From Roseibacillus sp. (GTDB lineage Bacteria; Verrucomicrobiota; Verrucomicrobiia; Verrucomicrobiales; Akkermansiaceae): a stretch of 52,892 nt of DNA. A model generated the notes under the pieces. It was not told where the DNA came from. It searched no databases and was given only the letters and a program-made list of their open reading frames with translations. The stretch spans positions 1 through 52,892 of the forward strand of contig JAPKFB010000031.1 in NCBI GenBank assembly GCA_028821775.1. Direction: 5' to 3'. Below, piece after piece: positions 48,805 through 51,759 of the stretch. The position numbers were made by a program, and so were the translations under genes. The first letter of the stretch is position 1. Every line of letters begins with the position of its first letter.

Positions 48805-48834
48805 AAAAAAGCGGTCCGGCATTCGCCGGACCGC
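48805..48834 (-). terminator. Strong terminator of the selenoprotein operon
   Basis: A perfect 10-bp stem (GCGGTCCGGC, 48834-48825, with GCCGGACCGC, 48820-48811) around a GAAT loop is followed by six U residues on the minus strand. It lies 29 bases after the stop of the last thioredoxin-like gene. Confidence 0.9.
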
Positions 48835-48863
48835 TGAAAAATCAAATTTTAACCAAGGATGAT

Positions 48864-49595
48864 CTAGGCGTCGGTCTTCTTGAGCTCGGCGACTTTCTGG
48901 AAGACCGCTCCTTTGCCCTCAGCCACGACTTCGCCGTCCTTGTTAATCAGCTTGTAGTTAGGGATTCCAAACCGGCCTGACATGTAGCTATCGAAGCCAG
49001 AGCGCCCGAGCTTGCTCTTCATGACAGTGGGCCAAGGAAAATTTTCCTTGGCGGCCCAGCTCTCGGCGGCTTTTTCGTCATCGTCGAGGCTGACGTGAAT
49101 CATCTCGACGAGAGGATGATCGGCGACTTGCTCGTTGTATTGCTTCACTAACTGTGGAGCAGATGCTTTGCAGGGGCCTCACCAACTGGCGGAATAGTAG
49201 ACGATGTAAAACTCGGGAGCCTTGGTGAGCTCATACTTGGCAAATTTTTGGCCGTCGATCTTCTCGAGGAGGCCTCGGCTGCTGAGTTTGCTCCCGACTT
49301 TCTGGGCTTTCAGCGCCTCCTGGACATTGTCACCGCCACCAGCAGCGGCATCCCCAGCGGCATTCTCCTTGAGGAAGGTTTGGTCTCCTTCGGAGAGTTT
49401 GGCGATGTCGAAGGTCACCGAGTGGCCATTGCGCATGATGACAGTGATCTTCCCGTCATCTTTATAGAAGGCCTTGAGCTCGCCTTCGAATTTCTTGGAA
49501 CCGTCGGCACTGGTCCAAGTACGGGCAGAGACCGCACCGACCCCAATTGATGCAGTTATCCCGATTGTCAGGAGGCATTTTAGTTTCATATGCAT
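48864..49595 (-). CDS. Exported SHD1-thioredoxin-like selenoprotein A (WUGPC)
   Basis: Read through the UGA at 49181-49179, the gene encodes 243 residues. A signal peptide (MKLKCLLTIGITASIGVGAV) is followed by an SHD1-like domain at about 22-75 (RTWTSADGSKKFEGELKAFY and FDIAKLSEGDQTFL), a Gly/Ala linker, and a thioredoxin fold. The fold reads FYIVYYSASW-U139-GPCKASAPQLVKQY, with the cis-proline in FGIPNYKLI. U replaces the first Cys of WCGPC; the second is TGC. A standard gene caller would split it at 49179 into a protein ending SASW and a downstream piece. It stops at TAG 48864. Start could also be ATG 49589. Last gene of the operon; Sec assignment is inferred. Confidence 0.85.
49142..49160 (-). 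promoter_or_regulatory. SECIS-like hairpin of selenoprotein A
   Basis: Eighteen bases after the UGA, GCUCCACAGUUAGUGAAGC folds as a 3-bp stem, one C-A mismatch and a 3-bp upper stem (CAC/GUG) with loop AGUUA. The loop begins 25 bases after UGA, within the range known for bacterial SECIS elements, and has a G among its first two bases. Confidence 0.6.
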
Positions 49596-49648
49596 GACGG
49601 GGGTTAAGCCCCTTAAAGCATCTTAACGCTGCCGCTTGCAAAAAAATT

Positions 49649-50203
49649 TCATTTTAGGGCCGCGATCTTTGAAAAAGCTTCTTTTTCGTCCTTGGTGACG
49701 ATCTTTCCGGCGCTGTCTACGAGGAAGCTTTCGCCGGCAAAGGCTCCATATTCGCTCAATCCCGTCTCCTCATAATGCTCGGCGAGCACGGTCGGCCAGG
49801 GGAATTTGCCTTCTAGAGCCCACTTGGTGGCATCGGCCTCCTCGTCATCGAGGCTCACGTGGATAAGTTCCACCTTCGCATTCGGGACAATCTGCTTCCG
49901 GTATTTCTCCACCAACTGGGGAGCGTGCTTGCGGCAGGGGCCTCACCAGCTCGCGGAAAAAAAGAGCAAGTAATATTCGGGGGCGCTCTGGAGATCTGCG
50001 CTGACGTAGTTCTCGCCCACGAGCACCTTGGTCTTGCCTAGGAGCTTTTTGCCGAAGGGCTGGGCCTCAAGGGCCGTGACCACTTCGGGGGTGGGCGGGG
50101 CGGGAGGCACTTGGGGAATGGTTCCCTCGACCTCCTTCTCGCCGCAGGAGGCAAGAAGGACGGTGGCAGACAGCGCGAGAGTGGGAATCAATTTAATCAT
50201 CAT
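49649..50203 (-). CDS. Thioredoxin-like lipo-selenoprotein B (WUGPC)
   Basis: 184 residues when the UGA at 49945-49943 is read through. A lipobox ends at Cys20 (LLASCGEKEV). A Pro-rich linker leads into YYLLFFSASW-U87-GPCRKHAPQLVEKY. The thioredoxin body continues VELIHVSLDDEEADATKWAL, but the cis-proline loop is replaced by FAGESFLVDSAG, so this paralogue lacks the usual substrate-contact proline. Its own stop is a TGA at 49649, showing that UGA still ends translation in the same gene. It begins 19 bases after gene C and ends 53 bases before gene A. Confidence 0.85.
49907..49923 (-). promoter_or_regulatory. SECIS-like hairpin of selenoprotein B
   Basis: CUCCCCAGUUGGUGGAG forms CUCC/GGAG with a C-U mismatch and a closing C-G below loop AGUUG. 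The loop starts 25 bases after the UGA, as in the two paralogues. Confidence 0.6.
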
Positions 50204-50222
50204 TGCTGCAAACTTTATGAAG

Positions 50223-50879
50223 TCAGGGGGCCTCTTGATCAAGGGCGGCGAAGACCGCGTGCTTCCCCTCGGCGATCTTCTCCCCGTCGGCACTGATCAG
50301 AATATAGCTGGGAATCCCTTGGGGGGAAAACACTTGGGTAAAGTCGTGCTCAGGAGGCCGCGTGCCATCCCGGTCGGTCATCATGATGGACAGCCACGGG
50401 AACTTGGCCTCTCTGGCCCATCCGGCGGCCGCCTTTCGATCGTTGTCCATACTGACTTGAATCAGGGCCACGTCGCGCCGGGCCGCCAGGTTTTTGGTGT
50501 AGTGCTCCACCAACTGGGGAGTAGCCGCCTTGCAGGGGCCTCACCAACTGGCGCTGTAATAGAGGAGGTAGCGCTCAGGGACGTAGCTGAGGTCTACCGC
50601 TTGGAAGGCCCCCTCGACCATCTTGACCGTCCTTCCCAGGAGTTGCGCTCCAATTTTCTGCTGGGCGAGAAGGGCGCGCGTGGTGCTGCCGGGACTTGGG
50701 TGGCGAGGAGATTTTCGTGCCCCCCCAGATGGCGCGCCTTGATCCAGGCTTCCGAGCTGGGGTGGGGGATCCTGAGGCCTTTGACCTCTCGCAGAGCCTG
50801 GGCTCTCCGAATCGCAGGTCGAGAGGGCGACCAGAATGCCGCTGCTGAGAAGGAAGGCGAGGAGGGACCGTGGATGCAT
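50223..50879 (-). CDS. Thioredoxin-like lipo-selenoprotein C (WUGPC)
   Basis: 218 residues when the UGA at 50543-50541 is read through. MHPRSLLAFLLSSGILVALS is followed by Thr-Cys, a probable lipobox at Cys22. A disordered Pro/Ser-rich spacer reaches about residue 70, then YLLYYSASW-U113-GPCKAATPQLVEHY and a thioredoxin fold with the cis-proline in GIPSYILISADG. The terminal stop is TGA at 50225-50223. The start at 50879 was chosen for the signal sequence; earlier frame has no likeness. It follows the hydrolase-like gene by 43 bases and precedes gene B by 19. Confidence 0.85.
50505..50521 (-). promoter_or_regulatory. SECIS-like hairpin of selenoprotein C
   Basis: The same 17 bases as in gene B (CUCCCCAGUUGGUGGAG) lie at the same offset from the UGA, giving the AGUUG loop 25 bases downstream. 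Confidence 0.6.
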
Positions 50880-50922: not shown

Positions 50923-51759
50923 CTACTGGTCAGCAGGCTTCCACAGGGCGGTGAGGAAATTTTGCATGGCCTTCCAGGAGGAGGCATCCGCCTTGGCATT
51001 GTAGACGTGGGGAATGTTGAATTTGGCGCCGATCTTATCGGCACCAGGCACGGTGAAGCTCTGCATGGCCGTGCCGAAGTCCATGATGGTCAAATCCGTC
51101 TTCACCGATTTCATCTCCTTCTTGAACTTCTCGATCACTCCTTCTCGAATGTAGGGATCTTCCACCGCGTTGCAGACCAGCACTTTGGCGCGCGCTTTGA
51201 GGATGGGCGGATTGGGTGAATGAACCTTGTAGAACGGATGGAAGGCGATCACCCCGTCCAGTCCGCGCATTCCGTTGCGGGCCATCTGCATGCAGACATC
51301 GCCGCCGGTTCCATAACCGATCGCGGCAATTCGTTCTCCATCAATCTCCGGTCGCGCGCGCAAAAACTTGAGGGCGGCAAGAAAACGAGCGTTCATCTCC
51401 GTCCGGTCGCGCTTGAGCTGGGCATCGAAAAGACCGGCCTGTTTTGGGTCATGGGCGATGTTCCCATCCCCATACAAATCCATGGCCAGCGCGGCGTATC
51501 CGAGCTTGGCCAGCATTTCCGCCCGCATCCGGGTGTAGTCATTGCAGCCCCACCATTCGGGTGCGACGAGGATGGCGGGGTGGGGGCCCGGGGCCTTCGG
51601 GAGAGTGAGGTAGGCCTTGGACGCAATCGTGCCGGCTTGAAAGCGAACTTCCTCGGTGAGGATATCTGATTCCGGCGCCAGAGCGGGGGCGGTCTCCGGC
51701 CCTTGTGCTTGGGCGAAGCCCGCGAGCAAAAGGGGGAGGGCACAGAGGGCGAATTTCAT
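50923..51759 (-). CDS. Exported dienelactone hydrolase-like protein lacking catalytic residues
   Basis: 278 residues with signal peptide MKFALCALPLLLAGFAQAQ. The alpha/beta-hydrolase body follows the dienelactone hydrolase family: PAILVAPEWWGCNDYTRMRA, LGYAALAMDLYGDG, GVIAFHPFYKV and VLVCNAVEDPYI. The nucleophile elbow, normally G-Y-C-x-G-G, reads IGYGTGGDV, and the catalytic His, normally in a V-H-S/A-F segment, is Gln in TAMQSF. The Asp of VEDPYI remains. Two of three catalytic residues are thus absent, so a binding or structural role is inferred. First gene of the selenoprotein operon. Confidence 0.85.
   Translation of the reverse strand: MKFALCALPLLLAGFAQAQGPETAPALAPESDILTEEVRFQAGTIASKAYLTLPKAPGPHPAILVAPEWWGCNDYTRMRAEMLAKLGYAALAMDLYGDGNIAHDPKQAGLFDAQLKRDRTEMNARFLAALKFLRARPEIDGERIAAIGYGTGGDVCMQMARNGMRGLDGVIAFHPFYKVHSPNPPILKARAKVLVCNAVEDPYIREGVIEKFKKEMKSVKTDLTIMDFGTAMQSFTVPGADKIGAKFNIPHVYNAKADASSWKAMQNFLTALWKPADQ

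Follow-up and report, generated by a model that had tools for sequence, protein, structure and literature searches.

Three genes split by an in-frame TGA

We analyzed a window of 52,892 nucleotides (nt) from Roseibacillus sp. (assembly GCA_028821775.1, the whole stretch of contig JAPKFB010000031.1 from position 1 to 52,892), which carries three adjacent minus-strand genes, here called A, B, and C. Each codes for a thioredoxin-like protein and each is split by one in-frame TGA in the same context, SASW-TGA-GPC, at the first position of the predicted active site (Table 1). Open reading frame (ORF) lists were made with and without TGA translated as selenocysteine (Sec, U) and compared with the sequence; both bore out the three TGA positions given in a first-pass annotation of this DNA. 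That annotation had also claimed that coding similarity continues past the UGA, and the similarity among A, B, and C indeed picks up directly downstream of the TGA, with pairwise identities of 41% for A-B, 43% for A-C (150 columns each), and 43% for C-B (108 columns). It was likewise right that UGA ends B and C in the normal way, since both stops read TGA. Of 24 window genes checked, a set that takes in A, B, and C, 8 terminate with TGA, and UGA is thus no general sense codon here. One small correction concerns the start of gene B, which is most likely the ATG at 50203. The pattern TGGTGAGGNCCNTGY gave six matches in the same genome: three are A, B, and C, and the other three were not counted because their reading frames are full of stops.

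All three proteins pass the cut-off of 27 bits for Thioredoxin_8 (PF13905), with scores of 36.7 (A), 37.8 (B), and 41.9 bits (C). By prediction, their fold class is that of tryparedoxin/ResA-like thioredoxins, and tryparedoxins are among their nearest relatives of known structure, in sequence as well as in fold. The motif UGPC leaves a putative resolving Cys in all three, as in oxidoreductases. Gene A appears to encode a signal peptide (read by eye, ...VGAVSA-RTW), an N-terminal SHD1-like stretch, and the WUGPC thioredoxin domain with a cis-Pro at GIPNY. The first-pass annotation spoke of SHD1-fused forms; the SHD1-like stretch of A scores 16.6 bits, under the Pfam cut-off of 23.7 (PF03983). 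SHD1 is listed in two of seven relatives, at 21.0 and 23.3 bits, and is precomputed on 3 of 27 database relatives of A. The structure model of A has strands at residues 25-63, and the fold comparison covers mainly model residues 97-242, with the N-terminal part barely included.

The motif W-[C/U]-x-P-C and the cis-Pro are both present in A and C (GIPSY in C). Gene B has the motif and no Pro at the cis-Pro column, leaving its catalytic set incomplete. Among B-type proteins, Pro is also missing from this column in L027 and L030 and lies one place off in L031, L037, and L039. Of 14 B-type relatives, 12 have Thr, Phe, or Leu instead of the Trp before Sec. Lipoproteins had been proposed at this locus as well. 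The proposal fits B, in which a lipobox Cys follows a hydrophobic stretch (LLASC), and most of its relatives: among the 14, 9 have the lipobox Cys as residue 20 or 30, counted from one of the starts found, 4 have a V-S-C near the picked start, and 1 (L041) has neither. It fits C less well, as the corresponding LSTC is weak.

Table 1. Positions of the genes and sequence elements in the window
Feature	Position	Strand	Description
Gene A	48864-49595	minus	243 amino acids (aa), predicted exported thioredoxin-like selenoprotein, WUGPC domain, TAG stop
TGA of gene A	49179-49181	minus	In-frame (sequence and ORF list), predicted Sec, first active-site position
SECIS-like hairpin of A	49142-49160	minus	GCUCCAC-AGUUA-GUGAAGC with a single C-A mismatch; loop 25 nt after UGA
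Gene B	49649-50203	minus	185 aa, predicted lipoprotein, putative WUGPC thioredoxin-like selenoprotein, TGA stop
Predicted lipoprotein signal of B	50144-50203	minus	Ends at Cys of LLASC
TGA of gene B	49943-49945	minus	In-frame, predicted Sec
SECIS-like hairpin of B	49907-49923	minus	Loop 25 nt after UGA
Gene C	50223-50879	minus	219 aa, putative WUGPC thioredoxin-like selenoprotein, weak lipobox, TGA stop
TGA of gene C	50541-50543	minus	In-frame, predicted Sec
SECIS-like hairpin of C	50505-50521	minus	Loop 25 nt after UGA
Terminator-like hairpin just past A	48810-48835	minus	11 pairs, 9 of them G-C, then TTTTT
Dienelactone-hydrolase-family (DLH) gene	50923-51759	minus	Upstream, co-directional, syntenic in 14 related loci

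Selenocysteine genes, UGA conservation, and the downstream hairpin

The first-pass annotation had proposed a search of the genome for selA, selB, selC, and selD. In the assembly (5.24 Mb, 200 contigs, 94.5% complete), tRNA-Sec (anticodon TCA), selA, selB, and selD are all present and all over the cut-off. Among 14 named control genomes, the cut-off was passed by tRNA-Sec in 5, selB in 2, selA in 1, and selD in 2, and weaker signals appeared in all 14 for three of the four Sec genes. A second match over the cut-off for the tRNA-Sec profile (47.5 bits) is a tRNA-Ser by ARAGORN. The SelD protein of this genome (L018, G000:C109:28605-29528) is itself a predicted selenoprotein with its own in-frame TGA (SSCAGUASKLG). 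The window contains no tRNA and no Rfam match at the gathering score.

A scan of species genomes gave 115 relatives, of which 80 loci were kept; the best are titled Roseibacillus, Akkermansiaceae, or Verrucomicrobiales and reach up to 64% identity. Genomes of the window's own genus and family share identical segments with these records, which places the window among close kin of Roseibacillus. Of 102 profile matches from the kept loci and the window, 44 carry TGA at the site codon, 49 TGC, and 8 TGT, and 1 was unresolved; this last copy (in L041) was later read as TGA. TGA occupies the site in at least one copy of all 27 loci L027-L053, a recurrence beyond what chance would give, and these loci include two named strains (L045, Roseibacillus ishigakijimensis KCTC 12986, and L051, Persicirhabdus sediminis KCTC 22039); Cys starts at L054. 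Both strains carry an A-type UGA, and many A-type relatives have UPPC at the active site. Among non-duplicate rows from near kin, 59 have TGA at the active-site codon and 56 have Cys. The predicted U aligns with the Cys of relatives, a check that the first-pass annotation had suggested. Of the outcomes that it named as refuting Sec, the absence of selB or selC does not apply, since both are present, and TGC or TGT as the true codon at the three sites is countered by other genomes with TGA at the same codon.

Of 195 genomes from the same family, 182 gave a match. Down to an E value of 4e-34, each of the matches listed has at least one TGA (G049 has two; G060 and G095 also have TAG or TAA), and the weaker matches listed beyond it mix stop-free forms with a few TGA forms. 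A selA match was found in 70 of the 195 genomes (69 over the cut-off). At least 64 genomes have a TGA copy among the matches listed; 58 of these 64 have a selA match and the other 6 have selB over the cut-off, so that all 64 carry a selA or selB match. The association between a TGA copy and selA gave a Fisher p value of ~2e-30, with the TGA counts as lower bounds. Downstream of the UGA, pN/pS of A-type genes was 0.22-0.66 in 15 comparisons (with pS near saturation), and it was lower after the UGA than before it in 13 of the 15. As judged from these comparisons, A-type genes are under purifying selection past the UGA.

Each TGA is followed by a hairpin resembling a selenocysteine insertion sequence (SECIS). 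The bacterial SECIS model, as given in the available part of PMC13188914, has a loop of 3-9 nt, a stem of 4-16 bp, a spacing of 16-37 nt, and a G within the first two loop bases. The hairpins of A, B, and C fit this model, with a 5-nt loop AGUU[G/A] located 25 nt past the UGA and a stem of six positions with a mismatch or bulge. Over 41 rows, 85.4% of the pairing cells are paired, compared to 79.4% in shuffles. At one closing position, 28 rows have C-G and the other 13 have G-C, a change that turns the peptide PQLV into PELL. Codon choice gives the stronger evidence. Among the 59 non-duplicate Sec rows, each of the 57 with Leu at +10 uses TTG or TTA there; such TTR codons make up 29 of 361 flanking Leu codons in the same genes and 6 of 51 in Cys rows. 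Gln at +9 is CAG in 45 of 45 Sec rows, Ala at +7 is GCT in 54 of 56, and Pro at +8 is CCA in 54 of 59. The hairpin codons are therefore constrained beyond the amino acids in Sec rows, and they are not kept in Cys rows. Locus L054 (1915), which carries Cys, branches inside the Sec clade (support 99/89). It keeps the peptide APQLVEKY but not the hairpin codons, apparently a reversion from Sec to Cys in which the SECIS was lost as well. In A, B, and C, the hairpin 25 nt past the UGA probably serves as the SECIS.

Gene order and history of the tandem

The order DLH-B-A-small lipoprotein-tsaE found in the window recurs in 14 of 28 loci tested (L027-L031 and L033-L041; the labels small lipoprotein and tsaE were assigned by reading the sequence). 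This shared order indicates that A and B are an old syntenic pair; tandem pairs occur in 15 loci (L027-L041). In the tree, A and B each cluster with the clade of their orthologues. The additional copy, C, lies between DLH and B. Closest to it are L134 and L122 (lipoprotein forms of another genus) and the same-genus L032, and the tree does not place it firmly (end branch 1.46; open group support 87/93). Among 31 genomes listed in full, none beyond this one has three adjacent copies, although broken contigs could hide others. Other genera of the family (g12 and g10) carry their own closely spaced Sec pairs (L135 826 and 1840 in G043; G066:C154). The two L135 copies come out as sisters (100/98), which suggests more than one duplication event.

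The genes belong to the minus-strand run with which the window ends and are separated by 43 nt (DLH-C), 19 nt (C-B), and 53 nt (B-A). Terminator-like sites numbered 5 in the window versus 4.1 in shuffles, and the site just past A has the most pairs. The DLH-C-B-A run looks like one transcription unit, and an operon is plausible from this arrangement. The DLH-family protein has Gly (GYGTGG) at a place that Cys (GFCFGG) takes in two PDB dienelactone hydrolases aligned to it, and a relative that was read (in L029) shares this Gly. This neighbor may be an exported-looking hydrolase fold without the usual nucleophile.

Reading of the UGA codons and relation to known systems

We are confident that the UGAs of A, B, and C are very probably read as Sec in exported thioredoxin-like proteins, in line with the first-pass view that Sec is the simplest explanation. 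We favor it because the genome has the Sec machinery and U aligns with the Cys of relatives, because the conserved UGA co-occurs with selA or selB, because the SECIS-like hairpin shows codon constraint and one compensatory pair, and because a Cys form that branches within the Sec clade lacks the hairpin codons. Several results weigh against this reading. The hairpin of A contains a C-A mismatch, one of seven hairpin pairs covaries and no other does, and two other covariation measures are not above shuffles (498 of 500 shuffles reach them). Folding energy over 60- and 87-nt stretches was no better than that of shuffles in six of six tests (z from -0.85 to +0.90), and the hairpin was judged on conservation for this reason. 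Twelve of the 70 selA genomes have no TGA copy among the matches listed, and the in-frame position of TGA was checked in the 30 loci fetched from the 195-genome search. Moreover, the lipobox of C is non-canonical and no sigma-70-like promoter was found.

Could the UGAs be true stops or nonsense mutations, leaving decaying genes or short N-terminal fragments? Of the 27 database relatives of A, 14 consist of 134-138 aa, which matches the stretch ahead of the UGA, and the two short ones that were read (P0002 and P0023) end at SASW. Such half-proteins are also what gene callers would produce by stopping at the UGA, and a stop would have to be squared with the same codon being hit in three paralogues and 59 non-duplicate rows, with coding constraint that goes on downstream, with the retained hairpin codons, and with the tie to selA/selB genomes; we consider a true stop very improbable. 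Equally little credence is given to a reading of UGA as Trp, Gly, or Cys through a changed code or a suppressor tRNA. The database relative P0001 has Gly in its recorded sequence where Sec would stand (WGGPC); its gene may have been called under a UGA=Gly code. Against such a reading, B and C are among the TGA-ended genes of the window, the codon coincides with the catalytic Cys, the genome has the full set of four Sec genes, and the hairpin codons are not maintained in Cys rows. We give almost no credence to an assembly error that made a triplet out of one or two real genes: the draft state of the genome and the single occurrence of three adjacent copies among the 31 genomes listed in full would suit it, but the copies are only 41-43% identical, A and B fall in their own orthologue clades, and the flanking order is that of relatives.

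With Sec as the preferred reading, SelA, SelB, SelC, and SelD of the same genome would decode the three UGAs. Protein A is predicted to be soluble in the periplasm once its signal peptide is cleaved, and B and C are predicted to be lipoproteins anchored to a membrane. Catalysis would start with the Sec selenolate attacking a disulfide of the substrate, and the Cys of UGPC would serve as the resolving residue, the same mechanism as that of the Cys pair in tryparedoxin, ResA, and TlpA. One DsbD_TM gene was found in the genome, and this single DsbD-type transporter would be the likely electron source. We lean toward a general disulfide-reductase role for A, B, and C. Sec may instead be inserted into proteins that act mainly as oxidant scavengers or as reductants for one dedicated partner, e.g., an exported peroxidase, a role that we regard as possible and rather doubtful. 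Tryparedoxins, which serve peroxidases, are among the closest solved relatives, and the replaced Trp and the missing or shifted cis-Pro of aligned B rows argue for a special substrate. On the other side, a resolving Cys is present in all three proteins, as in oxidoreductases, and no peroxidase occurs among the labelled neighbors (DLH, glutamate dehydrogenase-like, small lipoprotein, tsaE, and rplU; most labels by eye). We tentatively propose a selenium-based thiol pathway outside the cytoplasm in Roseibacillus and its Akkermansiaceae kin, in which tandem exported tryparedoxin-like selenoproteins, a soluble SHD1-type A and membrane-anchored B and C, would be made from one operon and pass electrons to different envelope targets, B having changed at the cis-Pro and, in the majority of relatives, at the Trp of the active site.

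By these results, Roseibacillus and its kin would have an exported selenoprotein family that is widespread among them, and the short database entries suggest that many such genes are recorded as truncated proteins ending at the UGA. A single mRNA that would require three separate Sec insertions offers a test of bacterial Sec decoding efficiency, the Cys form in the Sec clade is a natural experiment on the retention or loss of Sec in envelope redox proteins, and cultured relatives make the Sec question testable.

Single UxxC thioredoxin-like selenoproteins are known in bacteria, as the first-pass annotation stated, and Sec-thioredoxins and UxxC redoxins have been described (available parts of PMC13188914, PMC9312934, and PMC1088965). 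In the literature searched, we found no report of Sec in this exported Thioredoxin_8-type family or of tandem thioredoxin-like selenoprotein triplets, which does not prove their absence from print. The earlier claim of novelty thus stands for the triplet within that literature, and is tempered by the tandem pairs common in the nearest relatives. A term search did not find Verrucomicrobiota named in two reviews of prokaryotic selenoproteins (PMC13188914 and PMC9312934), nor Verrucomicrobia in the available part of PMC1794560 or in the deep-Sep paper (PMC12013277); planctomycete selenoproteins are treated in PMC4807772, as far as its available part goes. The text of PMC13188914, a 2026 review, contains no mention of PF13905, SHD1, tryparedoxin, lipoprotein, or Verrucomicrob-. 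The Sec-containing thioredoxin described in its available part (Trx UxxC, PF00085), a small thiol-disulfide oxidoreductase, resembles A, B, and C in the thioredoxin fold, in Sec as the first residue of UxxC, and in an in-frame SECIS. The three proteins differ from it in their Thioredoxin_8/tryparedoxin-like domain, predicted export, SHD1-like stretch or lipoprotein signal, and tandem arrangement. The same part covers Prx-like thiol:disulfide oxidoreductase, thiol-disulfide isomerase-like, redoxin-family, and UGC TlpA-family selenoproteins, which share UxxC or UGC in TlpA/redoxin-like folds. No curated NCBIfam selenoprotein family exceeded its cut-off on A, B, or C; the weak matches included SelL-related (16.1 bits, cut-off 120), WAxxUGC (14.6, cut-off 300), TsoB (13.8, cut-off 805), and TUGYCR (11.7, cut-off 100).

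Tryparedoxin/nucleoredoxin-type Thioredoxin_8 proteins have the active-site region and fold of A, B, and C. These proteins carry Cys, whereas A, B, and C are bacterial, predicted to be exported, and contain the putative Sec; the tryparedoxin motif is CPPC, and the UPPC of many A-type relatives is its Sec form. A, B, and C miss the NCBIfam cut-offs for StoA, ResA, and DsbE by a wide margin (A, 34.7 bits against 210 for StoA; B, 35.4 bits against 123 for DsbE). ResA, StoA, and DsbE share with A, B, and C the fold and the likely location, with Cys in the former where the latter have the predicted Sec.
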